Program-made: the position numbers and the translations under genes
Part shown: one piece after another, positions 2 to 63,011 of the stretch
Position numbering within the stretch: the stretch's first letter is position 1
Layout of the letters: each line of letters starts with the position of its first letter
The notes under the pieces: generated by a model
The model's input: the letters and a program-made list of their open reading frames with translations, nothing else
What the model was told of the DNA's origin: nothing
Database searches by the model: none
Source of the DNA: Chthoniobacter flavus
GTDB lineage: Bacteria; Verrucomicrobiota; Verrucomicrobiia; Chthoniobacterales; Chthoniobacteraceae
Direction of reading: 5' to 3'
Length of the DNA stretch: 64,000 nt
Assembly: GCA_945861435.1 (NCBI GenBank)
Contig: CAMAUX010000023.1
Coordinates: forward strand, 1 to 64,000

Positions 2-919
2 CAGCGTAAAGCTCATGGGACAGCATCCGCCCGAGAAAGAAAATCCCGCTCGCGAAAGCTGCAATTGCCTCCGCTCAAATTTCGCCGCCCTCCCTCTGTA
101 AAAGTCCCTTCAGAACCTCGGTTTCCTCAGGCTGTGGGATGGCTGTGGAATTTGAGCGCGTTCATGCAGGCGGTGAAGCAGCGTTTCAGCCAGTGGTTGA
201 ACACCCGCGATGAGCGGGCCGGGACACTTTGGGAAGGTCGCTTCAAGAGCGTGCTCGTGGAGGGGGCCGGCCGGACGCTTGCGACCATGGCTGCTTACAT
301 TGATCTCAACCCGGTGCGCGCGGGGATCGTGCGGGAACCCGGCCGTTATCGATGGAGCGGGTACGGCGAGGCGATGGCAGGCCGGCCATTGGCGCGTCGC
401 AGACTGCGGAGGGTGGTGCTCGGAGTGCTGGTGGAAGATCTACCAACTCAATCCGCCCAGTCTCCCCTGTCCGCCACAGACCACGTTCGAAGGAGCGTTC
501 CTCAGCGTAATCACGGTGATGGCTCCGCGCGTGAGGATCGTAAAGAGACGCGACGCGTGCTTTCGGCGTATCGGATGTACGTTTTCGAGAACGGAGTGGA
601 ACGGGCTCCGCAACCCGGGGACCCGAGATGCCGACGAGCCCGCCGGGGCATGTCCATGCAGGAGGTGGACGAGGTGATCCGGATGGGTGGACATCTGGGT
701 TTCTACGAGGCGATGCGGTGTCGGGTGAGGTATTTCACGGACGGTTGCGTACTGGGGTGTCGGGCATTTGTGGAGGGGTTCTTCGGCAAAAACCGAGAGA
801 GGTTTGGGAGCAGAAGAAAGAGCGGCGCACGCGATTTGCGCGGCGTGGAAATACCGTGGCTATTCACGGTCCGAGATTTGCGGCGCGCGGCGATCCGTCG
901 CACTAAACCCGTGGCGTGA
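2..919 (+). pseudogene. REP-associated tyrosine transposase (Y1_Tnp family), 5'-incomplete
   Basis: The reading frame is open from the left edge, so no true start is visible. The block from about nt 150 to 390 matches the C-terminal half of REP-associated/IS200-type transposases: a KQRFSQWLN helix, GTLWEGRFKSVLVE, then AAYIDLNPVRAGIV, whose Tyr (nt 296-298) sits at the expected nucleophile position. The family's HUH histidine pair (usually HFHLL) should lie upstream. The basic, proline-rich stretch before nt 150 does not resemble that domain, so the gene is either cut by the window edge or 5'-degenerate. Such proteins nick and move short palindromic repeats in cis. Short repeats do occur elsewhere in this window, but a link is only inferred. 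Confidence 0.6.
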
Positions 920-5139: not shown

Positions 5140-6648
5140 ATGACAAACCTCCCACTTCCCCTGCTGTCCTTGGTCATCGCCGTGGCACTGCATTCAGCAA
5201 CAACCACCGCCAGCGCCGCCCAGCCTCCGCCCAACGTGGTCTTCATCCTCGCCGATGACCTCGGCTGGGGCGAACTCGGCTGCTTCGGCCAAAAGAAGAT
5301 CCCCACGCCGCACCTCGACCGCCTCGCAGCACAAGGCACACGCCTCACCCAGCACTACAGCGGCGCCCCCGTGTGCGCCCCCTCCCGCTGCGTGCTCATG
5401 ACCGGCAAACACCTCGGTCACGCAGAAATCCGCGGCAACAAAAAGGCGACCTCCACCTCCAAGGAATTCACCGAAGGCCAGCATCCGCTCAGCGCCGCGG
5501 CCATCACCCTTGCCCAACTCTTCCAACAAGCCGGCTACAAAACCGCTGCCATGGGCAAATGGGGCCTCGGCCCCGTCGGCAGCACCGGCGATCCCAACAA
5601 AAAAGGCTTCGACCTCTTCTTCGGCTACAACTGCCAGTCCGTCGCCCACTCCTTCTATCCCGCACACCTCTGGCGCAACTCGGAAAAAATTCCCCTCAAC
5701 GCCAAACCCATCTCCGGCCACCAAACACCCCTCGAGGGCGATGTGCGCATGGAAACCTACATCGGCCAGAACTACGCGTCCGACTCCATCCTCGCTGAAG
5801 CCGAACGCTTCATCGCACAGAACGCCCAGCACCCCTTCTTCCTCTACCTCCCGTTCACAGAACCGCACGTCGCCATGCATCCACCGGCGGCCTCCGTCGA
5901 CCGTTTCCCGAAGGAATGGGATCCCGAACCCTACCGCGGCGAATCAGGCTACCTCCCGCACCCACGCCCGCACGCGGCCTATGCCGCGATGATCTCCGAC
6001 CTCGACTCCCATGTCGGTCGTATCATGGACGCACTCGAAAAAAACCACGCCGCCTCCCACACCCTCGTCCTCTTCTCCAGCGACAACGGCACCACCCACC
6101 CGGGCAAACCCGGCACCCGCTTCCACATCGGCGGCGTCGACCCCTTCTTCTTCAACTCCACTGCGGGCTTGCGCGGCTTCAAAGGCTCCGTCTACGAGGG
6201 CGGCATCCGCGTCCCCACCATCGCATGGATGCCGGGCCGCATTCCGGCCGGACGCAGCGACGACACCCCCAGCTTCTTCGCCGACTGGCTGCCCACCCTC
6301 TGCGACGCGGCATCTCTCCCACCCCCCGCACACCTCGATGGCGTCAGCCTCTGGCAACGCCTCACAGGCGGCCCCGCCCCCACCCGCGCCACACCCATGC
6401 TCTGGATATTCCCGGAATACGGAGGCCAGATCGCCGTGCGCATCCGCGACTTCAAACTCCTCCGCCAACGGCTTGCCACCAAGAACCCCGGCCCCTGGGA
6501 GATCTACGACCTTGCCAGCGATCGCTCCGAAAAAAACGACATCGCCTCCAAGCACCCCGAACTCATCTCCCAAGCCGAGGCACTCCTGCGCCGCGAAGTC
6601 TCCCCCAACCCCACCTTCCCCATCGCCATCCCCGGCGTCACCCCGTGA
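5140..6648 (+). CDS. Secreted arylsulfatase
   Basis: 502 residues with an N-terminal signal peptide (hydrophobic run to about residue 27). The metal-binding start FILADDLGWGE carries Asp39 and Asp40. The sulfatase signature CAPSR at residues 79-83 provides the Cys that is converted to formylglycine, and MGKWGLG and SSDNG motifs follow. This is a type I sulfatase expected to hydrolyse sulfate esters, probably from sulfated polysaccharides, in the periplasm or outside the cell. The maturase (sulfatase-modifying enzyme) is not in the window. The gene is not part of an obvious operon; the repeat-rich patch begins directly after it. Confidence 0.92.
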   Translation: MTNLPLPLLSLVIAVALHSATTTASAAQPPPNVVFILADDLGWGELGCFGQKKIPTPHLDRLAAQGTRLTQHYSGAPVCAPSRCVLMTGKHLGHAEIRGNKKATSTSKEFTEGQHPLSAAAITLAQLFQQAGYKTAAMGKWGLGPVGSTGDPNKKGFDLFFGYNCQSVAHSFYPAHLWRNSEKIPLNAKPISGHQTPLEGDVRMETYIGQNYASDSILAEAERFIAQNAQHPFFLYLPFTEPHVAMHPPAASVDRFPKEWDPEPYRGESGYLPHPRPHAAYAAMISDLDSHVGRIMDALEKNHAASHTLVLFSSDNGTTHPGKPGTRFHIGGVDPFFFNSTAGLRGFKGSVYEGGIRVPTIAWMPGRIPAGRSDDTPSFFADWLPTLCDAASLPPPAHLDGVSLWQRLTGGPAPTRATPMLWIFPEYGGQIAVRIRDFKLLRQRLATKNPGPWEIYDLASDRSEKNDIASKHPELISQAEALLRREVSPNPTFPIAIPGVTP

Positions 6649-6675
6649 TCCCGCAATGGGGGCCGGGCCGGGGCA

Positions 6676-6704
6676 GGAGAAAAATTCCCTGTCCCTATCG
6701 GGCT
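6676..6704 (-). repeat. ATAGGGACAGG motif, copy 1
   Basis: Plus strand reads GGAGAAAAATTCCCTG then TCCCTATCGGGCT. It starts 27 bp after the sulfatase stop. The same 29-bp sequence recurs exactly at 7229 and 7596. Confidence 0.85.
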
Positions 6705-6725
6705 GTCCCATCGCATCGCCAGCCT

Positions 6726-6935
6726 CTCGCGCCCCTGACCGGGGTGCGTCGCGTGGGGAAATGCGGTCCGGTGGTTTCCTGCGTCCGGAGCCAATAGGGA
6801 CAGGCAAAATCTCCTCGCATCATCAGCCTTCTCGCGCCCCTGACCGGGGTGCGTCGCGTGGGGAAATGCGATCCGGTGGTTTCCTGCGTCCGGAACCAAT
6901 AGGGACAGGCAAAATCTCTTCGCTGCTGTCGGAAC
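6726..6935 (+). repeat. 105-bp tandem repeat, two copies
   Basis: Copies at 6726-6830 and 6831-6935 differ at only a few positions. Each begins CTCGCGCCCCTGACCGGGG, contains GGGGAAATGCG, and ends with an ATAGGGACAGGC motif. A more diverged inverted copy lies at about 7690-7801. Confidence 0.88.
6791..6814 (+). repeat. ATAGGGACAGGC motif, copy 2
   Basis: CCAATAGGGACAGGCAAAAT followed by CTCC, inside the first 105-bp repeat. Confidence 0.85.
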
Positions 6936-6959
6936 CAATAGGGACAGGCAAAATCTCTT
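6896..6959 (+). repeat. ATAGGGACAGGC motif, copies 3 and 4 in tandem
   Basis: Two copies of CCAATAGGGACAGGCAAAAT plus CTCTT at 6896-6920 and 6935-6959 form a 39-bp direct repeat with the spacer CGCTGCTGTCGGAA. The remnant of a PEP-CTERM gene ends just downstream. Confidence 0.85.
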
Positions 6960-6984
6960 CGCTGCTGTGGAACGCGAACCCGAG

Positions 6985-7228
6985 CTACTCGCGCTTGAAG
7001 CGGCGGCGCTCGCGGCAGGCTATCAGGCCGAGCAGGAGGCCGCCGGCAATCCATGTGGAGGGCTCGGGAACGGCGGTGAGTTCGTAGTAATTGTTGCCGT
7101 TGAAACTCACCTGCGTCTCGCCGGCAAGTGAGCCGTTGAGGCTGATCCGGCCGAGCACGCCGGATACCGAGTTACTGAAAAGCACACGGCCGTTGCCGGT
7201 GGCGCCGAAGTTGGTGAAGGCCAGGAGA
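6985..7228 (-). pseudogene. 3' remnant of a PEP-CTERM sorted protein gene
   Basis: The minus-strand frame ends in the PEP-CTERM signal: a VPEPSTW motif, a hydrophobic segment (IAGGLLLGLIA) and a basic tail RERRRFKRE, then a stop at 6985. Upstream it keeps about 45 residues of a typical passenger C-terminus (FTNFGATGNGRVLF, ending NNYYELTA). The coding sequence ends exactly against motif copy 5 at 7229, and nothing upstream continues it, so the 5' part of the gene is gone. An intact gene of this type would carry an export signal and be sorted by an exosortase; no exosortase gene is visible in the window. Confidence 0.8.
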
Positions 7229-7257
7229 GGAGAAAAATTCCCTGTCCCTATCGGGCT
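7229..7257 (-). repeat. ATAGGGACAGG motif, copy 5
   Basis: Identical to copy 1. It forms the junction between the PEP-CTERM remnant and the duplicated epimerase fragment. Confidence 0.88.
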
Positions 7258-7564
7258 CGCGTCTGCGGAGTGAGAAAGCGCTCACGGAAAAACCGGATGC
7301 CGAGCCGGCCGCTGCACAGGATCAAGCCGCCGAGCAGGGCATCAATCAACACGACGCTGCGCGGCGGCGCCCACGGCATTGCGACATACTCGTAGCCGAA
7401 CGCGACAAAGCACGCACTCGCCACACAGACACCCAGGATCCGCCTGAGGTCTGGCGTGCTGAAATAGCTCAGCGAATCCTCGAACTGGCCGAACGCGTAC
7501 AACACCGCGAGCTTCAACGCGGCCACCCAGAGCAGCACCGCCCCCAAAGACGCGCCCAACGTCT
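7258..7564 (-). pseudogene. 307-bp duplicated fragment of the epimerase/dehydratase gene
   Basis: This block aligns without gaps to 9559-9865 in the intact gene downstream (constant offset 2301) with about six mismatches, roughly 98% identity. It encodes residues 45-146 of that protein (from LGASLGAVLLW to FFRERFLTPQ), that is, transmembrane helices without the catalytic domains. It has no start of its own and is framed by motif copies at 7229 and 7596, so it is a non-functional scrap. Confidence 0.93.
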
Positions 7565-7595
7565 ATTCGCCTCACGTCTCAGTGGGCTTGGAAGA

Positions 7596-7624
7596 GGAGA
7601 AAAATTCCCTGTCCCTATCGGGCT
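7596..7624 (-). repeat. ATAGGGACAGG motif, copy 6
   Basis: Identical to copies 1 and 5, in the same orientation. It lies 31 bp beyond the end of the duplicated fragment. Confidence 0.88.
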
Positions 7625-8012
7625 CGGCAACATCGGCACGCCGGAGGCATGAGAGAAATTAGCCGGCCGGTGACCGGCGGCCGCAACGCGCACGCAGGGA
7701 ACCACCGGAACCCGTTTCCCCACGCGACGCGCTCCGGCATGGGGCGCGAGAAAACCGATGATGCGAGGAGATTTCGCCTGTCTTTGTAGCCCCCATCGGC
7801 TGTCGGCTCCGTTATCTACCAACCTGAGCGCACTCCCCTCCGACCACATTCCGCTTCGGCAAAAAACGTGCCTCCAACCCGCAGAGGAATCGCCTCATCC
7901 GCCCCCCCCAGTATCCAGCGACCGGATCAAAACCCGCCTGCACTCCGGACCACGAAGCAGATCCTCTCAGGTCGATCCACAAGCCCACCGCCCACCGCCC
8001 ACCGCAACCATC
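7625..8012. other. Gene-free stretch with a diverged inverted repeat copy
   Basis: Nt 7690-7750 are an inverted, diverged copy of the 105-bp repeat, and 7767-7801 a degenerate motif copy. The rest, up to the end of the epimerase gene, shows no gene or RNA I can recognise. Confidence 0.6.
7767..7801 (-). repeat. Degenerate ATAGGGACAGGC motif, copy 7
   Basis: Plus strand GGAGATTTCGCCTGTCTTTG then TAGCCCCCATCGGCT. It keeps the CGCATCATC flank seen next to copy 2, but inverted. Confidence 0.6.
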
Positions 8013-9998
8013 TCAACCCAACCCCGCCTTCAACGCTCCTCCCGCCTGAATCTGCGCCTCCCCGGCACCCACCAATTCCCCAGCAGCCTCCCCGCCACCA
8101 CCGACCACACATCCCGCTCCCCTGACTCCCCCCATCTGCGGCTGGTATTCGGGAACCACCCGCTTGAGCAAAACCTTGAGTTCGTCGCATGACGCCACCG
8201 GCAGCACCGTGACAAGGCTCTCAAGGATCGCCTTCATCGCCCCGTAGCGCGCCGGCTCACCGCGCAACCGCAGGATCTTCGGATGCTCCGTGGCCAACAC
8301 GTTTTCAGAGCGATGACTCAGCTCTTCAAAAAGTTTCTCCCCGGGACGCAACCCCGTGAACACCACCTCGATGTCCTCCCCAGGACGCAGCCCGCTCAGT
8401 TCGATCATCTGCCGTGCAAGATCCGCGATCTTCACAGGCTCGCCCATATCCAGCACAAAAATTTCCCCGCCCTCCGCCTGCGCAGCACTCTGCAGCACGA
8501 GACTCACCGCCTCCGGGATCGTCATGAAATAGCGCGTCACCTCCGGATGCGTCACCTTCACGGGCCCGCCTGCCGCGATCTGCCGGGTGAAGATCGGCAC
8601 CACACTGCCTGAACTCCCCAGCACATTGCCAAAGCGCACCGCCACAAACCGCGTGCATCCGCCCTCCCTCTGCTGCAGCCCCTGCACCACCTTTTCCGCA
8701 AGCCGCTTGGTGGCCCCCATCACATTGGTCGGATTGATCGCCTTGTCCGTGGAAACCAGCAGAAAAAGTCCTGTCCCATGGCGCCACGCCAGTTCCGCCA
8801 CCTGTGCAGTCCCGAGCACATTATTGCGCAGAGCCTCTGCCGGCTGCCCCTCCATCATCGGCACGTGCTTATGCGCCGCTGCATGGAACACCACGGCGGG
8901 CTTGTGCGTCCCGAACACCGCCCCCATGCGCACCGCATCCGTCACATCGGCCACCACAGCCTCCACCCGACCACCCTGCCCCATTTCCAAAAGCTCCTGT
9001 TCAATGGGAAAGAGCGCCGCCTCCGAACGTTCCACCAGCAGCAGACGCGCAGGCTCCATCGCCGCAATCTGACGGCACAGCTCCGAGCCAATGCTTCCGC
9101 CCGCTCCCGTCACCATCACCACACGCCCCACCAGCAGCGAGCGCACATTCTCAGAACCAATCTCCACCACGTCGCGCCCGAGAAGATCCTCGATCTGCAC
9201 CGCACGCAGACTGCTCACGCTCACCCGCCCAGTAGCCAACTGCCCCATCGACGGGATCGTACGGAATCGGACCCCGGATTTCTGCACCACCTCCACGATC
9301 TCCCGCAGACGCGCCGGGCGCACGGAAGGCATCGCGATCACCACCTCGTCCAACCTTGCGCCCAGCCCCTTCTCCGCCAGCCATTCCGGAGGCCCCCATA
9401 CCGCAATGCCGTGCACTCGCGAACCAGGACGCCGGTGATCGTCGAAGAACGCCACAGGCCGCAGCCCCAGCCATCCTTTCGCCAGCAGATCGCGTGCAAG
9501 CGCCGTCCCCGTGTCCCCGGCCCCGATCACACCCACCCGCCGCGGACGCTTCATCCCGCGCGTCTGCGGAGTGAGAAAGCGCTCACGGAAAAACCGGATA
9601 CCGAGCCGGCCGCTGCACAGGATCAAGCCGCCGAGCAGGGCATCAATCAACACGACGCTGCGCGGCGGCGCCCACGGCATTCCGACATACTCGTAGCCGA
9701 ACGCGACAAAGCACGCACTCGCCACACAGACACCCAGGATTCGCTTGAGGTCTGGCGTGCTGAAATAGCTCAGCGAATCCTCGAACTGGCCGAACGCGTA
9801 CAACACCGCGAGCTTCAACGCGGTCACCCAGAGCAGCACCGCCCCCAAAGACGCGCCCAGCGTCTCCGGCACGTCGAAGTCGAAGCGCAGCTCATACGCA
9901 AGCCACAGCCCCACCATGCTCCCCCCTGCGTAAAGCGTCCCAAGCGTCACAAGGCGCGCCGCGCGTCCATTGGCCAGAAATCCGTAGATCGTGTTCAT
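8013..9998 (-). CDS. Membrane-bound nucleotide-sugar epimerase/dehydratase (CapD/PglF-like)
   Basis: 661 residues. Four N-terminal transmembrane helices (about 1-140) are followed by a first Rossmann-like region (VGVIGAGDTG, from about 154) and then the catalytic SDR domain with VMVTGAGGSIGSELCRQ. The catalytic STDKAINPTNVMGATKR segment carries the Ser/Thr-Asp-Lys and ATK pattern of the inverting 4,6-dehydratase/5-epimerase family (WbpM, FlaA1, PglF). It most likely makes a UDP-4-keto-6-deoxy sugar. The DegT aminotransferase next to it would then aminate the product. A Gly/Ala-rich C-terminal tail of about 40 residues looks non-conserved. It follows the aminotransferase by about 1 bp. Confidence 0.9.
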   Translation of the reverse strand: MNTIYGFLANGRAARLVTLGTLYAGGSMVGLWLAYELRFDFDVPETLGASLGAVLLWVTALKLAVLYAFGQFEDSLSYFSTPDLKRILGVCVASACFVAFGYEYVGMPWAPPRSVVLIDALLGGLILCSGRLGIRFFRERFLTPQTRGMKRPRRVGVIGAGDTGTALARDLLAKGWLGLRPVAFFDDHRRPGSRVHGIAVWGPPEWLAEKGLGARLDEVVIAMPSVRPARLREIVEVVQKSGVRFRTIPSMGQLATGRVSVSSLRAVQIEDLLGRDVVEIGSENVRSLLVGRVVMVTGAGGSIGSELCRQIAAMEPARLLLVERSEAALFPIEQELLEMGQGGRVEAVVADVTDAVRMGAVFGTHKPAVVFHAAAHKHVPMMEGQPAEALRNNVLGTAQVAELAWRHGTGLFLLVSTDKAINPTNVMGATKRLAEKVVQGLQQREGGCTRFVAVRFGNVLGSSGSVVPIFTRQIAAGGPVKVTHPEVTRYFMTIPEAVSLVLQSAAQAEGGEIFVLDMGEPVKIADLARQMIELSGLRPGEDIEVVFTGLRPGEKLFEELSHRSENVLATEHPKILRLRGEPARYGAMKAILESLVTVLPVASCDELKVLLKRVVPEYQPQMGGVRGAGCVVGGGGEAAGELVGAGEAQIQAGGALKAGLG

Positions 9999-9999
9999 G

Positions 10000-11163
10000 T
10001 CATCCTTGATTGGCCAACGTCATTCGTTCCCGGGCGCGCCGGTGCACCCTGCCCACCACCTCACACACCCGCTCAAGGTCCGCCTCCGAAAGCGCAGAAC
10101 CACTGGGCAGGCACAGGCCGCGCGCAAAAAGCTCCTCGCTGTTTTCCCCACCCACCACACGGCACCCCTCAAAACTCTTCTGCAGATGCAACGGCTTCCA
10201 CACCGGCCGCGCCTCGACATCCTGCTCCTCCAACGCCACGCGCAACTCCGCCGCACTCGCGCCAAAATCCTCCGGATCCACAAGGATGCACGTCAGCCAG
10301 CAGTTGGAGTGCGATCCCGCCGGAACCGGCATGAAACTCACCCCCTCCATCCCACTCAGCGCCTCCTCGTAATATGCGCGATTGCGCCGGCGCGCCGCCA
10401 CCCGCTCCTCCAACACCGCAAGCTGCGCGCGCCCCACCCCGGCCAGCAGATTGCTCATCCGGTAATTGTAACCCGCCACCACATGCTCGTAATGCGGCGC
10501 ACGCTCCCTCGCCTGCGTCGCAAGATAGCGCGCACGCTCCACCAACCCGCCATCCTCGGACACCAGCATCCCACCACCAGACGTCGTGATGATCTTGTTC
10601 CCATTGAAGGAAAACACCCCCGCACGCCCAAAACTCCCCGCCATGCGCCCGTTCCACGACGATCCCAGCGCCTCCGCCGCATCCTCAAGAATCGCCACCC
10701 CGTACTCCTCACACACCGGCACAATGCGCCCGTAGTCCGCGCAGTCCCCGTAAAGATCCACCGCCACGAGGACCCTCGGCACCCGCCCTCGACGCGCACA
10801 CGCCGCCAGTTCCTCCTCCAACAACCCCGGATCCAGGTTCCACGAATCCCTTTCCGCATCCACAAACACAGGGCGCGCCCCGAGGTGCACCACCGGATTC
10901 GCACTCGCTGCGAACGTGAGGCTCGCGCACAACACCTCCTCCCCGGCCTCTACCCCAAGCAACTGCAGACCAAGGTGCACGGCCGCCGTCCCCGAACTCA
11001 ACGCCGCCGCGTACGGCACCCCCACCTTCCGCGCAAACTCCGCCTCAAACGCATCCACGTGCGGCCCCAGCGGCGCCACCCAGTTGGAATCCAGCGCCTC
11101 GTTCAAATACTCACGCTCCCGTCCGCTGAGATGCGGCGGCGAAAGATAAATGCGCCCGCTCAC
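10000..11163 (-). CDS. DegT/DnrJ/EryC1-family PLP aminotransferase
   Basis: The start is taken at GTG 11163, which overlaps the preceding gene's stop by 4 nt (GTGA) and gives MSGRIYLSPPHLSG, the usual family N-terminus; the longer frame upstream is Gly-rich noise. Family features are SSGTAAVHLGL (phosphate binding), VDLYGDCADY, ILEDAAEALGSSW, and the PLP lysine in SFNGNKIITTSGGGM. It transfers an amino group to a keto-sugar nucleotide. Placed directly before the CapD-like dehydratase, it suggests that the polymer contains an amino-dideoxy sugar such as a bacillosamine-type unit. Confidence 0.9.
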   Translation of the reverse strand: MSGRIYLSPPHLSGREREYLNEALDSNWVAPLGPHVDAFEAEFARKVGVPYAAALSSGTAAVHLGLQLLGVEAGEEVLCASLTFAASANPVVHLGARPVFVDAERDSWNLDPGLLEEELAACARRGRVPRVLVAVDLYGDCADYGRIVPVCEEYGVAILEDAAEALGSSWNGRMAGSFGRAGVFSFNGNKIITTSGGGMLVSEDGGLVERARYLATQARERAPHYEHVVAGYNYRMSNLLAGVGRAQLAVLEERVAARRRNRAYYEEALSGMEGVSFMPVPAGSHSNCWLTCILVDPEDFGASAAELRVALEEQDVEARPVWKPLHLQKSFEGCRVVGGENSEELFARGLCLPSGSALSEADLERVCEVVGRVHRRARERMTLANQG

Positions 11164-39414: not shown

Positions 39415-39428
39415 CAATAGGGACAGGC
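39415..39428 (+). repeat. ATAGGGACAGGC motif, copy 8, interrupted by the intron
   Basis: CAATAGGGACAGGC ends exactly where the group II intron 5' end GTGCG begins. Confidence 0.75.
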
Positions 39429-39849
39429 GTGCGCCGGAGAATGCGGTGCTCAAGCGGGTGAAAGTCCCGTCTGCCGAGTGGGCTGTATGCGGCAGTGATG
39501 AGTCGGGAACTGCGTCGCCGTGAGGCGGGGTGGAGAGCAACCGATTCAAGACAGCCAGGCCGTAATGAAAATGAACCACAGATGAGCGTCGAAAACTTCC
39601 TCTCAGAGCCAGCCGAGCCGATGCCTGTCGGTGAGCCGAACGCAGTGAGACAGACTGCCGCAGGCAGCCCGTAGGGTGCGAAGCATCAACGCCAGCGAGG
39701 TCAGCCCAAGAGCAACAGTCCGGCTGACGCAACCTCTGAGGGCGTATTCGTGGACGGCATGGTTGGAAATGACACCGAGATAAACCGGGAGATCTGCTCG
39801 GGCGGGGCGAAAGCCTCAACCGCCGCTTCAAGCCTGTACGCAGGTAAGG
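39429..39849 (+). ncRNA. Group II intron, 5' fragment (no reverse transcriptase, no domain V)
   Basis: The sequence starts GTGCG, the group II 5' consensus, and continues with the characteristic GCGGGTGAAAGTCCCGTC element. Further on come GAGTCGGGAACTGCGTCGCC and GGCGGGGTGGAGAGCAACCG of domain I, and a domain III-like GGGGCGAAAGCCTC. No intron-encoded protein and no domain V (usually GAGCCGTATG and CGTACGGTTC) follow. The element stops against a motif copy at 39850, so it is a truncated, probably splicing-dead remnant. Assignment is by recognition of conserved intron elements, not by folding. Confidence 0.75.
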
Positions 39850-39884
39850 GATAGCGGATAGGGACAGGCAATTTCTCCACTCTG
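39850..39884 (+). repeat. ATAGGGACAGGC motif, copy 9
   Basis: GATAGCGGATAGGGACAGGC then AATTTCTCCACTCTG, directly after the intron remnant. The 35-bp form recurs at 39999 and 40186. Confidence 0.88.
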
Positions 39885-39998
39885 TTGAGCCAGCCGCCAA
39901 CCACCTCCAACGCAGCGCGATCCCTCGCCCTCTGCTCGTCCTACCCCACCCCCACCGTCCGCGTCAGCAGATTCTGGGAAAACGCGAAATGCGCATTG
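39885..39998. other. Scrap between two motif copies
   Basis: On the minus strand one frame reads FAFSQNLLTRTVGVG and then a stop, which looks like the C-terminal end of some protein without the rest. I do not recognise the source gene. It resembles the gene scraps at 6.9-7.6 kb in being bounded by motif copies. Confidence 0.4.
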
Positions 39999-40372
39999 AT
40001 AGCGGATAGGGACAGGCAATTTCTCCACTCTGCCTCTCCTCCCAACGCCCTGCCTTGGAGCCCCCCCTTGTAGCCGATAGGGACCCCCTGCCACCGCGCC
40101 CACGCTCAAACACCTCTCCACATACCGCAACACCCTCCGCAGCTCACGCCTCTGCGCGGCATCGGAACTCCGAGAAATGGTAAGGGATAGCGGATAGGGA
40201 CAGGCAATTTCTCCACTCTGCCTCTCCTCCCAGCGCCCTGCCTTGGAGCCCCCCTTGTAGCCGATAGGGACCCCCGCCACCGCGCCCACGCTCAAACAGA
40301 CCTCTCCACATACCGCAACACCCTCCGCAGCTCACGCCTCTGCGCGGCATCGGAACTCCGAGAAATGGAGAA
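39999..40372 (+). repeat. 187-bp tandem duplication with motif copies
   Basis: Two copies, about 39999-40185 and 40186-40372, are nearly identical apart from small indels. Each contains the 35-bp motif (39999-40033; 40186-40220), a CTGCCTTGGAGCCCCC block, a TGTAGCCGATAGGGAC half-motif (40069-40084; 40256-40271), and about 80 bp from the 3' end of the hypothetical gene at 40292-40669. A 2-bp difference (CAAACACCTC versus CAAACAGACCTC) changes that gene's reading frame at its stop. Confidence 0.88.
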
Positions 40373-44061: not shown

Positions 44062-44913
<852 letters not shown>

Positions 44914-55346: not shown

Positions 55347-58300
55347 ATGAAACTGCAACGCTTCGTCATCCCTTTCCTCATCGCCCTCGCAGCCGTGCTG
55401 CTCCTCAAAAACCAAAGAATCCACCGCCCCACGGACCACAGCGCCACCCTCAGTCACACCGACCTGCCCCAGTCCCCGATCCCCCCCACGCAAACACTAT
55501 CCTCGAGCGACTCCACCCACCCCTCAACTCCTCACACCCCGCAACCGCACCAACTCCAACATCCTCCTTCTAAACCCAGCGCCAGCGCCCCCATGGACGC
55601 CGGCCTCGCCGACGCCCTGCGCCACGCCCGCTACCAATGGGAGGCCCTCGACCCCAAAGCCCCCCACGCCCGCGGTGCCCTCTCCTTCGCCGCCAACCCC
55701 CGACAGCAACTGCGCACATGGCTCGGCGAACACGGCCTCGAATTCGCCAGCGGCCTGCGCTCCCAACCCGGAGTGCCACCATGGTCCGTTCAACTCTCCC
55801 TCCAAAGCGCCGGACGCGAGGACGCATCAACCCATTCCACGGCCATCACCACCAGCCAGCGCACCCTCCGCGCCGACTCCTCCCGCGTGGAAATCACAGA
55901 CCCCGCACTCGGCCTCGTCGAGTGGTACGAAAACCAACCCGCCGGCATCGAACAGGGCTTCACCCTCTCCTCTCCGCCCGCAGGAAACGGCCCCCTCCAA
56001 ATCCGCCTCTCCGCCTCCAACGGCGCACGCTTCACCCCTTCGGACGACGCCGCCACCGTCCACATCCAACATCCGGACGGCCGCCCACTCCTCGCCTGCT
56101 CCGCCCTCCACGCATGGGATGCCGACGGCCGCATCCTCGATTCCCACATGAGCGCGGACGGCTCCACCCTCACACTCTCAGTCGCCGACGCCGGCGCACG
56201 CTACCCCGTCACCATCGACCCTCTCTTCACCAACATCGAGGCGCGCCTCGCCGAGGAGATCGTCACCGGCGATGAATTCGCCACCGCACTCGCTCTCAAC
56301 GCCCACACCGCACTCGTGGGCGCACCCGGCGCCGACGGCATCGCAGGCCCCAATTCCGGCGCCGCCTACATCTTCACGCGCTCCGGCACCCGCTGGGAAT
56401 TCCAAGCCAAACTCGTCGCCGACGATGCCGCGCTCGACCACCAGTTTGGCAACGCCGCGGCCCTCGGCGCCGACACCGCCGTCCTCGGCGCACCGGGCGC
56501 CACTGCCGCCTATGTCTTCGTGCGCTCCAACAACCAATGGACCCAACAGGCAAAGCTGCTCGCCAGCGATGCGTCCTCCCTCAGCCTCTTCGGCTCCTCG
56601 GTGAGTGTCTCCTCCGAGACCGCCGTCGTCGGCGCCAGCGGTGCGAACGCCGCCTACGTCTTCACGCGCTCCAACTCCCTCTGGACCCAGCAGGCGAAAC
56701 TCACCGGCAGCCAGAGCCTCACAGGCGATGAATTCGGCTCCAGCGTTGGCCTCGACACCGACACCGCGGTCGTCGGCGCGCCCTCCGCCACCGTCGGCAC
56801 TTTCGCCACCCAAGGCTGCATGTACGTCTTCGTGCGCAGCGGCTCCTCATGGACCCAGCAACAACGCCTCACCGCTTCCAACGGCGCACGTTATGACCGC
56901 CTCGGCAGCGCAGTGGCCATCAGCGACAACACCGCCATCGCGGGCCTTGATAGCTCAGACCCTCTCGAGACAGGGCGCGCCTATGTCTTCCTGCGCACAA
57001 GCTCCACATGGGCTCAACAGGCTCAACTCACCGGCACCTCCCTCGCAACCGGAAGCCGCTTCGGCGCCGCCGTCGCCATCGAGGGCAATCAGGCAGTCGT
57101 CGGCGCGCCCGCCAATGACGCAGGCAGCCAGTTCGCCTGTGGCAGCACCTACGTCTTCCTGCGCACAGGCTCCACATGGGCTCAGCAGGCAAAACTCGCA
57201 GCAACCGGCGGCTCCACCGACGACCTCTTCGGCGCCAGCGTCGCACTAAGTTCCGGCACCCTCCTCGCCGGCAGCCCACAGGACGCCACAGCCGCAGGCG
57301 CTCAGTCCGGCAGCGCCGAAGTATTCCTTCTCAGTGGCAGCACATGGAGCTCCCAAGCCCAGTTGCTCGCAGGCAATTCCGCCGGATTCGACCTCGCCGG
57401 TTCTTCCGTCGCACTCAGCGCCGACACCGCCCTCATCGGCGTCCCCTACGATGACTCCTCCTCAGGCGCCGACGCCGGTGCCGCCTACGTCTTCACCCGC
57501 TCCGGTGCGCGCTGGACAAGGCAGGCAAAGCTTTACCCAACCGACCCCGCCGCCTCCGCGCTCTTTGGCTCCGCCGTCGCACTCGATGGCGACAAGGCCC
57601 TCGTCGGCGCCCCCATGGCCACCGTCAGCGGCGCCACCACCGCAGGCGCCGCCTACCTCTTCGCCCGCGCCAACTCCGCATGGACGCAGGAGGCCAAACT
57701 CACCGCCACAAGCCCGGTCGCCGCCGATCAGTTCGGAAAAGCCGTCGCCCTCAAGGGCCAGACCGCCCTCGTCGGAATCCCCTTCCGCGACCCCTCCTCT
57801 CTCACCAACGCAGGCGCCGTCTGCGTCTTCACCTGCACCGCCTCCACATGGAGCGTCCAGACCACCCTCACCGCACCAACCCCGGCCGCATCGGATTTCT
57901 TCGGATCCTCCGTCGCCCTCAGCGGCGAGACGGCTCTCGTCGGCGCGCCCGCAAACTCCCCCGCGCTCGGCAGTGCCTACGCCTTCCTGCGCACAGGGAC
58001 TTCCTGGAACATCCAAGCCACTCTCCAAGGCAGCGACACAACCGCAGGCGACGGCTTCGGATCCGCTGTGGCCTTGGACAACGCCACAGCCCTCATCGGC
58101 TCCCCCTCCCACACCACCATCGCGGGCGCGGGCGCCGGCACCGCCTACCTCTTCACGCGCACAGACACCGCATGGACCCAGCAGGCCCGCCTCACCGCAG
58201 CCGATGGCGCCGCCAACGATCACTTCGGGTCCGCCGTCGCAGTCCGCGAATCCATGGCCCTCATCGGTGCACCGTCCAAGGATCTCGCCAACAACCAAGA

Positions 58301-61300
58301 CGCCGGCACCGCCTACCTCTTCACCTCCACCAACTCCCTCTGGAGCCAGCAGGCACAGTTCGGCTCCGGCCTCGACAGCTCAGCCGGCGATCTCTTCGGC
58401 GCCGCCCTCGCCCTCGATGCCGACACCGCTCTCGTCGGAGCCGCCCTCGACGACACCTCCGATGTCGATGCCGGAAGCGCCTACTCCTTCCGCCTCGGCG
58501 AACTGCCCGCCATCCTCACCCCGCCTGCTTCGCGCACCGTTGTTCCGGGCACCACTCTCACCTTCACCGCCACCGCCTCGGGCTACGCGCCCCTGCGCTA
58601 CCAGTGGCGCCGCAACGGCGTGGAAATCGCCGGCGCCACCGCCTCCTCCCTCACCCTCACCGTCCCCTCGCAGGCCCCGTTCACCGCGTCGGAGGGCAGC
58701 TACGACGTCCTCGTCTCCAACGCCGGCGGCGTCGCCCTCAGCTCCCCCGCCCTCCTCAAAGTCAACGCCCTCTCCGTCCTCACCCAAGTCGATCCCACCA
58801 CCCTCGACCCTCGCTCCAACGCCCAGGGGTTCCTCCTCGTGCGCATCTTCCCAGACACTCTCACCGGCACGTCATGGCGCTTCGTCGGCGAACAACTCTG
58901 GCGCACCCCAGGCATCCCCGTCGGCGGCCTCGCCACCGGCGACCGCGAAATCGAGTTCCGCCCCATCCCGGGCTACCTCCACCCCTTGCGTGAACCGGTC
59001 AGCATCGTCAGCGGCTCCCCAACCTCCGTCGTCGACCGCGAATATTTCACCATCGAGGAACCAGCCACCGCGTCGCTCAACATTACCCTCCTCCCCGCCT
59101 CCGTCTCTGCCACCGCGCGCTGGCGTTTCCTCGGCGAAAACGACGCCGCCTTCCAGCCCTCCGCCACCACCCGCTCCGGCCTCTCCGCCGGAATTTACAT
59201 CGTCGAATTCTCCGACGTCCCCGGATACTCCACCCCGCGCCCACTCTCTGTCAGCGTCTCCGAATCGGAATCCAAAACCGCCTCCGCCACCTACTCCCTC
59301 CCGGACGCCACCGTGGGCGCTCGCCCCCAACTCACAGGCTTCGACTCCGTCGTCGCCCCGGGCGACTCCAACCCCACACGGTTCGTGGGCCAGATCCGCA
59401 ACGACGCAGGCGCGGGCACCGGCTTCGTCGTCAAACCAAGGGTCGTGTGCACCGCCGCCCATGTCGTCTTCGACGAGGTCGCAGGCGCCCCGTTCACAGG
59501 CCTCAAATGGCTCTTCCAACTCGAACGCGGCTCCCACGACCCCGTCGCCCAAACTCCGCGCGGCTCCTACATCCTTTCCGGCTACAGCACCGCCCGCGCC
59601 CAGCCAGGCTCCATCCCAGGCCAGAGCACACCGGAATCCCAGAACCTCGACGCCGCTGCCCTCTGGTTCTACGAAAAATCCTCCAACGGCCGCAGCCAGA
59701 ATCCCCTTGCCGCCCGGGGCGGCTCCAGCGGTTACCTAGCCAGCGACGCCGCTGCCAACGAGTGGCTCCTCTCCTCCCGCCTCAAAACCATCGTCGGCTA
59801 CCCCCTCGACGGCATCCCCCCAGCCAACCAAGGCCGCATTCACAGCGTCCCTCCGCTCAACGCCTCCTTCACCCAAGCCTCCGCGCGCGTCTACCTCACC
59901 TCCGACATGACATCCTCCGCCGGCAACTCCGGCGGACCCGTCTGCGTCCAATACGACGACGGCCGTTACTACCCCGCCGCCATCTACATCGGCGGCTCCA
60001 CCCAAACCCGCGTACGCGCCATCGACAGCGATGTCATCTCCCTCTTCACCACCGCCGAAAACAGCGCCAACTCCGGCCTCAACTTCCTAGACTCCGGCCA
60101 AAGCCTCTCTGGATCCGATCTCGCTGGCCCCGCCTCCGGCACACTCCAAGTCGTGCTCGAACCCGCCTCCGCCCGCACCGATGGCGCCGCATGGCGCATC
60201 GGCTCCAATTCCTACCTCCTGAGCGGCCAGACCCGATCCTTCCTCCAAAACGGCAAATACAGCCTTCAGTTCAAAGCCCTCCCGGGCTACCGCGCCCCGG
60301 ACACCCGCATCGTCACCGTCAACGGCAACACCACGGTCACCGCCACCTACGTCCTCGTCCCACGCCCCGCCCTCTCCGGCCCCGCCTCCATCCGCGTCCC
60401 ACGCGGCACGCCCCTCCAAAAACAGGTCGTCGCTAACAGTTCCCCCACCAGCTACGCCGCAGAAATCGTCGGCGGCGGTTCCCTCGCCGGCATGGGCCTC
60501 AGCTTCAACACCTCCACCGGCGAACTCACCGGCTCCCCCTCCCAAGAGGGCTCGACACAGCTGCGCCTCACTGCCTCCAACGAAACCGGGACCAGCGACG
60601 CTCTCGTCCTCGCTCTCACCGTCATCCCACCACCGCCAGTCCTCTCCGGCACATCCACCCTCAACGCCACCGTCGGCGTTCCTCTCCAAAGCCAGATCAC
60701 CGCCTCCAACTCCCCCTCCTCCTACTCCGCATCCCTCTCCGGCGCACCCTCCCTCGCCTCAATCGGCCTCGCTCTGGACTCCGGCACCGGCCTGCTCACG
60801 GGCATCCCCACCACCGCAGGCACCTACTCCCTCACCATCATCGCCTCCAACGAAGCGGGCTCCTCTTCTCCTTTCTTTCTCTCCCTCGTCGTCGCTCCGT
60901 CCGCGCCCTCACTCACAGGCCCCACCGAATTGCGCACCGTAAAAGGCGCCCCCATCACATCGCCACAACTCCAAGCCACCAACTCCCCATCCAGCTACGC
61001 CGCAAACGTCGTCGGTGGGGCATCCCTCTCAAGCCTCGGCCTCACCTTCAATTCCACCACAGGCGCACTCACCGGCACCCCGACACAGACAGGCTCCTTC
61101 CCACTCTCCTTCACCGCCTCCAACAGCGCAGGCACAAGCGCCCCGCTCCTTCTCACACTCACCGTCATCCCGCCAGCCCCCGTCCTCTCAGGCGCCTCCA
61201 CCCTCAACGCCACCGCAGGCGTCCTCCTCCAACAACAGATCACCGCCTCCAACTCCCCCTCCTCCTACTCCGCATCCCTCTCCGGCGCACCCTCCCTCGC

Positions 61301-63011
61301 CTCAATCGGCCTCGCTCTGGACTCCGGCACCGGCCTGCTCACAGGCATCCCCACCACCGCAGGCACCTACACACTCACCATCATCGCCTCCAACGAAGCG
61401 GGCTCCTCTTCTCCTTTCTCCCTCTCCCTCGTCGTCGCTGCCCCTCCAGTCGCACCCGTCCTCACAGGCCCCACACAACTGCGCACCCTCACCGGCACGC
61501 CCATCACCCCCCTCCAGTTCCAAGCCACCAACTCCCCCTCCCGCTTCGCCGCAAACGTCGTCGGCGGCGCATCCCTCTCAAGCCTCGGCCTCTCCTTTGA
61601 TTCCACCACAGGCGCCCTCTCCGGCACCCCCACCCAGACCGGCTCCTTCTCCCTCTCCGTCACCGCCTCCAACGACGCCGGTTCCAGCTCCCCTCTCCTC
61701 CTCGCTCTCAACGTCACCCAACCCGGCCGCCTCTTCGCCTCCCTCAGCACCCCCAACGGCGCCCGCGGCTCCATCGAACCCGCCATCCCCACCGAAGGCC
61801 GCGTCTTCACCCAGGGCTCCCTCCTCAAACTCACTGCCATCCCCGCTCCCGGCTCCCTCTTCGCTGGTTGGACAGGCACCACTTCCTCACCCACCTCCTC
61901 CACCCCCGTCTCCTCCTCCAATCCCGCCCTCTCCCTCACCGCATCCTCCCTCATGGAGGTCCAAGCACACTTCATCCCCAATCCCTTCCTCCAACTCGGC
62001 GGCAATTACGTCGGCCTCGGCAGCCCCTCATCCCCCTCCGGCTCCGATTGCGGCATTTCCCTCACCCTCATCGAAACCGGCGCCTTCACAGGCAGACTCA
62101 ACCTCGGTTCCAAATCCCTCGTCCTCTCCGGCAAATTCGATTCCAGCGGCAACACCCTGCTCTCTCTCCCTCAAGGCAAGGGCCTCCCCAACCTTCTCCT
62201 CTCCCTCACCTTCACCCCCACCGACTCCGGCTCCATCTCCGGATCCCTCCAAGCGCAGGGCAGCGAACCCTCCCTCAGCACCATCTCCCTGCGCCGCGTC
62301 CCATGGTCCACCACCAACCCCTCGCGCCTTGCCGGCAATTACACCGTCCTCCTCCCGCCAGCCGACAACACCCGCACCAACCCCGCTTTCCCACGCGGCA
62401 CAGGCTACGCCACCCTGAAAATCGACACCGCAGGCAAGGCCACCTTCACCGGTAAACTCGGCGACGGCACCACCCTCTCCGCCTCCTGCTCCCTCGACGC
62501 CGCAGAACAACTCCCCCTCTTCACCTCACCCGCTGCCCTCCTCGGCGGCTCCCTCTGCGGCTCCTGGAGCTTCGACGCCGACTCCGCACCCACCGCATCC
62601 CTCTCGTGGGTCACCCCGGCTCGCTCCAAGGCCGCCATCTATCCCGCTGCCTTCAACGGCACCCTCGATGCCGTCGGCAACCGCTTCACCCCGCCTCCCA
62701 CCGATACACGCGTCCTCGATTCCTCCTCCCTCCAAATCGCATTCGACGCACCAGAGGGCGTCTCCCTCCCCCCCTCACTCACCGCCACCCTCGACACCAA
62801 AAACAAACTCACCCTCTCGCTCCCCAACCCCAGCCTCCTCCAACTCACCCTCAACTCCAAAACAGGCGCCCTCTCCGGTTCCTTCCGCCTCGCCTCAAAG
62901 AGCGTCTCCTTCACCGGCGTCCTCCTCCAGCAGGACCGCTTCGCCGCAGCCCTCTTCCTGCTCCCCATCCAGAAAGCCTCCGCCTCCCTCTCCCTCGCTC
63001 CGGTCCAGTGA
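55347..63011 (+). CDS. Giant secreted protein: FG-GAP-like propeller, Ig domains and embedded trypsin-like protease
   Basis: 2554 residues with an N-terminal signal/anchor (FVIPFLIALAAVLLL). About 294-1050: some fourteen repeats of the GDEFGSSVALDTDTAVVGAP / GAAYVFTRSG type (FG-GAP-like propeller blades). About 1050-1330: an Ig-like domain and two PEGA-like segments. About 1330-1560: a trypsin-like fold with His1372 (CTAAHVV), Asp1435 (NLDAAALW) and Ser1528 (GNSGGP), a full triad. About 1590-2120: a PEGA-like segment and several He_PIG/putative-Ig repeats, two nearly identical at DNA level (about 60650-60890 and 61190-61430). About 2125-2205: an InlB-like repeat with GWTG. The rest forms a C-terminal beta-rich domain. 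Probably cell-surface or secreted; target unknown. Confidence 0.85.
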   Translation: MKLQRFVIPFLIALAAVLLLKNQRIHRPTDHSATLSHTDLPQSPIPPTQTLSSSDSTHPSTPHTPQPHQLQHPPSKPSASAPMDAGLADALRHARYQWEALDPKAPHARGALSFAANPRQQLRTWLGEHGLEFASGLRSQPGVPPWSVQLSLQSAGREDASTHSTAITTSQRTLRADSSRVEITDPALGLVEWYENQPAGIEQGFTLSSPPAGNGPLQIRLSASNGARFTPSDDAATVHIQHPDGRPLLACSALHAWDADGRILDSHMSADGSTLTLSVADAGARYPVTIDPLFTNIEARLAEEIVTGDEFATALALNAHTALVGAPGADGIAGPNSGAAYIFTRSGTRWEFQAKLVADDAALDHQFGNAAALGADTAVLGAPGATAAYVFVRSNNQWTQQAKLLASDASSLSLFGSSVSVSSETAVVGASGANAAYVFTRSNSLWTQQAKLTGSQSLTGDEFGSSVGLDTDTAVVGAPSATVGTFATQGCMYVFVRSGSSWTQQQRLTASNGARYDRLGSAVAISDNTAIAGLDSSDPLETGRAYVFLRTSSTWAQQAQLTGTSLATGSRFGAAVAIEGNQAVVGAPANDAGSQFACGSTYVFLRTGSTWAQQAKLAATGGSTDDLFGASVALSSGTLLAGSPQDATAAGAQSGSAEVFLLSGSTWSSQAQLLAGNSAGFDLAGSSVALSADTALIGVPYDDSSSGADAGAAYVFTRSGARWTRQAKLYPTDPAASALFGSAVALDGDKALVGAPMATVSGATTAGAAYLFARANSAWTQEAKLTATSPVAADQFGKAVALKGQTALVGIPFRDPSSLTNAGAVCVFTCTASTWSVQTTLTAPTPAASDFFGSSVALSGETALVGAPANSPALGSAYAFLRTGTSWNIQATLQGSDTTAGDGFGSAVALDNATALIGSPSHTTIAGAGAGTAYLFTRTDTAWTQQARLTAADGAANDHFGSAVAVRESMALIGAPSKDLANNQDAGTAYLFTSTNSLWSQQAQFGSGLDSSAGDLFGAALALDADTALVGAALDDTSDVDAGSAYSFRLGELPAILTPPASRTVVPGTTLTFTATASGYAPLRYQWRRNGVEIAGATASSLTLTVPSQAPFTASEGSYDVLVSNAGGVALSSPALLKVNALSVLTQVDPTTLDPRSNAQGFLLVRIFPDTLTGTSWRFVGEQLWRTPGIPVGGLATGDREIEFRPIPGYLHPLREPVSIVSGSPTSVVDREYFTIEEPATASLNITLLPASVSATARWRFLGENDAAFQPSATTRSGLSAGIYIVEFSDVPGYSTPRPLSVSVSESESKTASATYSLPDATVGARPQLTGFDSVVAPGDSNPTRFVGQIRNDAGAGTGFVVKPRVVCTAAHVVFDEVAGAPFTGLKWLFQLERGSHDPVAQTPRGSYILSGYSTARAQPGSIPGQSTPESQNLDAAALWFYEKSSNGRSQNPLAARGGSSGYLASDAAANEWLLSSRLKTIVGYPLDGIPPANQGRIHSVPPLNASFTQASARVYLTSDMTSSAGNSGGPVCVQYDDGRYYPAAIYIGGSTQTRVRAIDSDVISLFTTAENSANSGLNFLDSGQSLSGSDLAGPASGTLQVVLEPASARTDGAAWRIGSNSYLLSGQTRSFLQNGKYSLQFKALPGYRAPDTRIVTVNGNTTVTATYVLVPRPALSGPASIRVPRGTPLQKQVVANSSPTSYAAEIVGGGSLAGMGLSFNTSTGELTGSPSQEGSTQLRLTASNETGTSDALVLALTVIPPPPVLSGTSTLNATVGVPLQSQITASNSPSSYSASLSGAPSLASIGLALDSGTGLLTGIPTTAGTYSLTIIASNEAGSSSPFFLSLVVAPSAPSLTGPTELRTVKGAPITSPQLQATNSPSSYAANVVGGASLSSLGLTFNSTTGALTGTPTQTGSFPLSFTASNSAGTSAPLLLTLTVIPPAPVLSGASTLNATAGVLLQQQITASNSPSSYSASLSGAPSLASIGLALDSGTGLLTGIPTTAGTYTLTIIASNEAGSSSPFSLSLVVAAPPVAPVLTGPTQLRTLTGTPITPLQFQATNSPSRFAANVVGGASLSSLGLSFDSTTGALSGTPTQTGSFSLSVTASNDAGSSSPLLLALNVTQPGRLFASLSTPNGARGSIEPAIPTEGRVFTQGSLLKLTAIPAPGSLFAGWTGTTSSPTSSTPVSSSNPALSLTASSLMEVQAHFIPNPFLQLGGNYVGLGSPSSPSGSDCGISLTLIETGAFTGRLNLGSKSLVLSGKFDSSGNTLLSLPQGKGLPNLLLSLTFTPTDSGSISGSLQAQGSEPSLSTISLRRVPWSTTNPSRLAGNYTVLLPPADNTRTNPAFPRGTGYATLKIDTAGKATFTGKLGDGTTLSASCSLDAAEQLPLFTSPAALLGGSLCGSWSFDADSAPTASLSWVTPARSKAAIYPAAFNGTLDAVGNRFTPPPTDTRVLDSSSLQIAFDAPEGVSLPPSLTATLDTKNKLTLSLPNPSLLQLTLNSKTGALSGSFRLASKSVSFTGVLLQQDRFAAALFLLPIQKASASLSLAPVQ

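Follow-up and report, generated by a model that had tools for sequence, protein, structure and literature searches.

Canonical RAYTs (REP-associated Y1, HUH transposases) are accompanied by REPs and REPINs, short repeats that are tied to the Y1 transposase gene and form clusters genome-wide, and whose spread by RAYTs has been called poorly understood (PMC8266576). TIRYT genes carry terminal repeats with the consensus GGGGWSAS, and some of these repeats form dimers or clusters (PMC3733652). For subclasses 2.1 and 2.3 of the TnpA_Y1 family, whose members cut and join single-stranded DNA, the part of the published survey drawn on here reports no REP-like sequence, a TIR consensus apart (PMC6006769). 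In the titles and abstracts of the open-licence literature, we found no description of RAYT-site arrays with trapped gene pieces.

The arrays described here share with REPs and REPINs the link to a Y1 transposase gene and the genome-wide clustering, but differ from them in having linear units without a GTAG-plus-hairpin and in containing gene pieces between those units (PMC8266576). We found no GT[AG]G at a hairpin foot, as in REPs and REPtrons; GTAG occurred in the units by chance only, and five unit sequences folded no better than their shuffles (z -1.14 to +0.56). As with TIRYTs and TIRtrons, there is a RAYT-like gene with a GGGGWSAS repeat similarly placed upstream (AGGGACAG in this genome, agreeing at 7 of 8 positions, and GGGGACAG in the relatives G012 and G041), and the repeat forms clusters (PMC3733652). 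Unlike in TIRtrons, no inverted partner occupies a fixed downstream place: the sequence C[TC]G[AT]CCC lay within 400 bp of the RAYT stop at only 7 of 25 loci, with no common position. Ladders and trapped gene pieces, both present here, do not figure in the part of the TIRYT description drawn on (PMC3733652). The motif site therefore fits neither REPs nor TIRtrons fully, having neither the REP hairpin nor a fixed inverted partner. In outcome, the trapping of gene fragments in association with an HUH-type enzyme resembles gene capture by Helitrons; however, these are eukaryotic transposons, whereas the scraps seen here stay in local arrays beside the site, with no enclosing transposon ends (PMC4778049).

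The PF01797 profile recovered six genes from the genome, five of them RAYT-like, with a Y1 domain scoring 52-54 bits (cut-off 23) and with the HuH and Y---NP motifs of RAYTs and TnpA_Y1 class 2; the NCBIfam model REP_Tyr_transpos gave 55.6, below its cut-off of 80. Their long protein, C-terminal tail, Y---NP motif and lack of a gene-adjacent REP hairpin recall subclasses 2.1 and 2.3, and their presence as several copies per genome at modest identity recalls subclass 2.3 (PMC6006769). In the published table against which the genes were compared, subclass 2.3 has NHYH, YVDLNP, about 325 aa, a core insertion and a long tail, and subclass 2.1 has YIELNP, whereas all five genes here have NHVH and YIDLNP in open frames of 391-481 aa (PMC6006769).

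A gene fragment within a motif array

The window, a stretch of 64,000 nucleotides from Chthoniobacter flavus, contains a 307-bp block that self-BLAST matched to an epimerase gene 2.3 kb away (E=3.5e-149; Table 1). The original prediction of a constant-offset match with about six mismatches was accurate: the offset is 2301 throughout, and the two copies differ at exactly six positions, three silent and three amino-acid changing, with the copied frame still open. It had also held that only the transmembrane-coding part was copied, which is roughly right, as the copied residues form the hydrophobic region preceding the dehydratase domain, with hydrophobic windows beginning at residues 46-54, 87 and 114-116.

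The block is framed by direct, identical copies of the 30-bp motif AGGAGAAAAATTCCCTGTCCCTATCGGGCT, with identity extending over 34 bp (7226-7259 and 7593-7626). The framing by identical direct copies had been recognized, with the motif given as 29 bp, and the block does begin directly after the left copy and end 30 bp before the right one; a third copy had been overlooked, and these three are the only full 30-mers in the 5.35-Mb genome at up to 3 mismatches. Read along the motif direction (minus strand), the piece has its filler at its start, and its end abuts the next unit directly.

Table 1. Coordinates of features in the window
Feature	Position	Strand	Match or remark
5'-truncated RAYT gene, no adjoining motif	140..916	+	protein 77% identical to the C15 RAYT, residues 126-390
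Prefix-motif unit 3	6675..6704	-	identical 30-mer
Opposed array of three motif units (cores 6794, 6899, 6938) plus tandem rung	6785..6961	+	
PEP-CTERM gene 3' end, starting right after unit 2	6986..7225	-	88% to C27:1278-1517
Prefix-motif unit 2, abutting the end of the trapped epimerase piece	7228..7257	-	identical 30-mer; junction reading
Trapped epimerase-gene piece, residues about 45-146	7258..7564	-	98.05% over 307 bp to 9559-9865; sense to motif strand
30-bp filler between prefix-motif unit 1 and trapped piece	7565..7594	-	no match at <=3 edits elsewhere in the sequence examined
Prefix-motif unit 1 (AGCCCGAT-AGGGACAGG...)	7595..7624	-	identical 30-mer
Worn copy of hairpin-rich dispersed repeat (motif at the left end in copies elsewhere)	7627..7782	-	
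Intact 661-aa polysaccharide biosynthesis epimerase/dehydratase gene	8013..9998	-	Pfam Polysacc_synt_2, E=1.1e-114
Source of trapped piece, within epimerase gene	9559..9865	-	self-BLAST
Second motif array of the window (cores 39417, 39858, 40006, 40194)	39417..40220	+	
Stretch reading as 5' part of a group II intron, directly after AGGGACAGGC, ending before the next prefix	39429..39848	+	no Rfam match at gathering

As had been stated, the source locus has no motif-like unit; the epimerase ORF contains only a bare GGGACAGG octamer (minus strand, start 8777), about 0.8 kb from the copied stretch. Comparison with relatives had been proposed as a check: all three congeners have the epimerase gene, and their matches to window positions 6500-10100 cover the gene but not the array. 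The 2.8-4.3 kb around their epimerase genes contained no motif array, only a single GGGACAG in L192. With its source inside an intact ORF, its own position in a motif array and congeners that match the gene only, the block finds support as a recent copy placed inside a motif frame. The further claim that the copy gained this frame on arrival did not hold up: the motif belongs to one of many RAYT-tied arrays, and several other fragments have been trapped besides this block. What frames the block is the motif together with a prefix specific to the cluster, a combination that has been duplicated repeatedly, also with nothing in between. With moderate confidence, we read the epimerase copy as a trapped gene fragment in an array that has grown at a RAYT recognition site. 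Target-site duplication by an ordinary insertion sequence was rejected, since no such element lies between the motif copies and the duplicated length varies.

The PEP-CTERM gene end beside unit 2 is, judged from sequence, likely a second trapped or truncated piece; at 88% identity, its partner on contig C27 may be a paralogue rather than the source.

Distribution of the motif and its link to RAYT genes

With up to 2 mismatches allowed, the core ATAGGGACAGGnAnAAT occurs at 140 places in the genome, whereas the reversed pattern occurs at 4. These places are clustered and spread over dozens of contigs, many lying near contig ends, and one direction predominates within a cluster. Within the 53 stretches examined around listed core places and RAYT genes, which cover a subset of the 140, steps measured between 14 bp and more than 1,000 bp and intervals between 0 and more than 1,000 bp; units were often cut short, and the prefix varied by cluster. 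In 28 of 39 loci, GGGACAG was on the C-rich strand (p=0.009), a moderate bias relative to replication; other versions of the test gave 30 of 47 loci (p=0.08 by a binomial test, p=0.02 by a t-test) and 27 of 39 (p=0.024), with loci of equal counts on both strands left out throughout. The support that these tests lend is slight.

Among the five RAYT genes, which share 74-87% DNA identity, alignment agreement begins at AGGGACAGGC in four copies (the site is degenerate in L107, and an insertion in L108 shifts it further upstream). The motif core GGGACAG thus marks the left edge of homology among the RAYT genes of this genome. No common right end was found among the five copies, in which homology stops near the stop codon. 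RAYT relatives were present in 16 of 57 genomes, this one included. Of 28 RAYT loci tried, 25 gave a start, and at 19 of these 25 the core preceded the YHC codon by no more than 140 bp, at -94 to -107 in 17, counts that are not independent because loci of one species are paralogues. The other six had no core in the tested window, some having variants such as GGGACGC or being truncated where the contig ends. Lying upstream of RAYT, the motif could be no more than a promoter or operator of that gene. Many clusters have no RAYT nearby, and the nearest one on this contig is 5'-truncated, so any RAYT action there would be in trans. In L107 (2206-2706), an inverted RAYT 3' piece of 82% identity sits beside motif copies rather than between them.

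This spelling of the motif is all but confined to the species. No recognizable relative in the named-organism collection had the 18-mer AATAGGGACAGGCAAAAT, for which the collection yielded 17 scattered stretches with a single match each, and a 16-base form (up to 1 mismatch), present 81 times in this genome, occurred in only one of 37 relatives searched, at three places in G001. In several relatives, the RAYT site is instead spelled GGGACAGRCMYTTT, with 40 exact copies in G002, 41 in G012, 106 in G020, six in G001, four in G041 and none in G014; reversed controls gave zero throughout, except for one in G001. Arrays of this sister spelling occur in G002, G012 and G020, with steps of 28-74 bp plus larger inserts in G002. 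The spelling of the motif thus shifts between lineages while its link to RAYT persists. In G020 (e.g., L214, L219), the 106 copies are for the most part scattered, in either direction, instead of packed into tight arrays, which is another style of expansion.

Tandem ladders at the motif core

We identified exact tandem duplications, or rungs, at the core: 16 distinct ones in this genome and 12 in relatives. Their left edge has its mode 11-12 nt before GGGAC and falls mostly 9-13 nt before it here, with a wider spread in relatives, whereas the right edge is variable, with a peak immediately after GGGAC. As a control, 200 permuted heptamers on the same sequences gave a mean of 0.72 rungs in this genome and 0.27 in relatives, the top scorers being GGACAGG and other shifted forms of the motif. 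An exact shared prefix of 8-14 nt was found in 27% of 115 adjacent unit pairs, compared with 3.2% of 5,000 random cross-locus pairs; 0.9% of adjacent pairs shared 15-30 nt and 59% only 0-3 nt, suggesting that many units were not born side by side or were altered later. Locally, the motif multiplies in copies whose 5' edge is fixed about 9-13 nt before GGGAC and whose 3' edge varies.

Y1-family enzymes hold the 5' end of the cut strand covalently. A fixed 5' edge beside a conserved core, together with a variable 3' edge, is what would be expected if a strand were cut at a set distance, extended variably at its 3' end and rejoined to the same 5' end. We consider it fairly probable that RAYT acts at the motif site and that re-joining or repair duplicates prefix and motif, occasionally copying nearby or distant DNA in between; we infer RAYT to be the enzyme because a constant site precedes its gene and ladders occur at that site. 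On this model, the RAYT nick would fall in one strand, about 11 nt before GGGAC and perhaps also at GGGAC^AG; the free 3' end would be extended through prefix and motif, at times switching to another template, either on the same strand at a distance of some hundreds to some thousands of bases or elsewhere; and the 5' end at the prefix start would then be rejoined. Without a template switch the product would be a short tandem rung, and with one it would be motif, gene scrap and motif, the epimerase copy representing a single such event.

The same ladders bear on a passive origin, in which the motif is hard to replicate or repeat-rich, slippage and microhomology repair make the duplications and fill-ins, and RAYT merely has the motif in its promoter. 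Slippage and microhomology-mediated repair do leave tandem rungs and templated inserts, and the repetitive motif would itself promote further change. However, the edges lie at set distances from GGGAC in several genera, unlike those of permuted motifs of the same composition, and pure slippage does not account for these set distances. The absence of a stable fold, the near-fixed position upstream of RAYT and a RAYT link that outlasts changes of spelling also speak against passive instability, which we regard as unlikely, though worth weighing.

Trapped gene pieces

Pieces of host genes, the RAYT gene included, sit between motif copies and are joined directly to the prefix on one side. Besides the epimerase piece, cluster C6 contains the 3' end of a gene read as encoding a PIN-domain protein, which contig C1 matches best (96% across the searched part; 93.5% over 292 bp when the downstream repeat is included). 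At its source, this piece runs on into the hairpin-rich repeat described below, and homologous recombination may therefore account for it. Cluster C15 carries RAYT-internal pieces of 203 and about 300 bp in two successive intervals, 97-98% identical to the RAYT just downstream; they share their start and so probably reflect one event followed by duplication. In the relative G041, a 132-bp piece from inside RAYT lies in locus L168, its source being about 0.5 kb away. A genome-wide search with 26 low-repeat segments gave three clear matches outside the cluster repeats, namely the PIN piece, a stretch resembling an intron, and a piece of about 100 bp that looks like part of an element. The last, in C27, is 94-96% identical to six other places and may be a remnant of an ordinary element, as its other copies begin at the same point; a segment of L062 matched C62 at 83% over 81 bp. 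The trapping documented here is real but limited, with a source identified for few intervals.

A stretch beginning GTGCGCC, which we take from its features to be the 5' end of a group II intron, lies directly after AGGG[AT]CAGGC at three unrelated places (window 39429-39848; L061 5139, minus strand; L125, C64:1-2500, minus strand), as if an intron homed to the motif.

The pieces could then have come from reverse transcription, with a group II intron homing to the motif right after AGGGACAGGC and opening the DNA, and its RT copying host mRNAs into the break as sense cDNA scraps. Reverse-transcriptase genes are present in this genome, intron-like sequence follows the motif directly at these three places, and the pieces with a coding source (epimerase, PIN, C15 RAYT, L168 RAYT and PEP-CTERM) are all sense to the motif strand. 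Nonetheless, nearby same-strand copying also predicts sense orientation, as for the epimerase, C15 and L168 pieces. Only one of seven RAYT-bearing relatives matched the RVT_1 profile; rungs and a trapped RAYT piece occur in G041, one of the six without a match (G041, G002, G014, G047, G049 and G026). The position of the intron, after GGGACAGGC, likewise differs from the usual rung edges after GGGAC and about 11 nt before it. The scarcity of RVT_1 matches and this offset disfavor the reverse-transcription route, and we judge it improbable.

Assembly error at repeats would fit a draft of 105 contigs in which many motif clusters lie near contig ends, but the six differences between copy and source, and similar structures in many contigs and in other species' assemblies, make it very improbable. 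CRISPR-like integration, in which an integrase inserts DNA pieces and duplicates a repeat, would account for units of about 30-35 bp, several per cluster, with differing DNA between them, but is hardly credible given the irregular steps and intervals, shortened units and cluster-dependent prefixes described above and the scatter of clusters over dozens of contigs, where a CRISPR array has regular repeats and near-constant spacers.

Returning to RAYT action at the motif site, we offer a broader proposal tentatively, rating it somewhat below an even chance: this REP-less RAYT family may be a bacterial fragment-trapping machine that cuts beside its own GGGACAG site and rejoins the same 5' end to any available 3' end, so that the arrays would sample host genes, its own included, and the edges at about -11 and GGGAC^AG would be the cellular cut sites. 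If RAYT does act in this way, the arrays record its site, cut positions and lineage-specific expansions, and bacteria have a route for copying gene scraps to new places, with an outcome comparable to Helitron capture. The role of RAYT is testable with one purified protein and one oligonucleotide.

Other repeats in and near the arrays

A hairpin-rich dispersed repeat (CGCGCCCC-ATGC-CGGGGCGCG ... CATGCCTCCGGCATG) occurs at window positions 7627-7782 and at about a hundred further places in the genome, often with the motif at its left end; it is possibly a non-autonomous element of the motif/RAYT system or a structured RNA, and the whole window gave no Rfam match at gathering thresholds. A second dispersed repeat, CTCACACCAAGGCACCAAGGCACAAAG, occurs in both directions and is common in or near motif clusters (L058, L069, L071, L076 and others). 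An element starting TAGCCCGCATAAATCAC, possibly an unnamed insertion sequence, lies at L067 4385-4511 and has six further matches (C50, C10, C77, C54, C84 and C53), several of them near contig ends. The window itself has direct repeats, 110 to 800 bp long and 65-92% identical, at 44670-44889, 56470-58491 and 60365-61723, which probably encode repeat-domain proteins.
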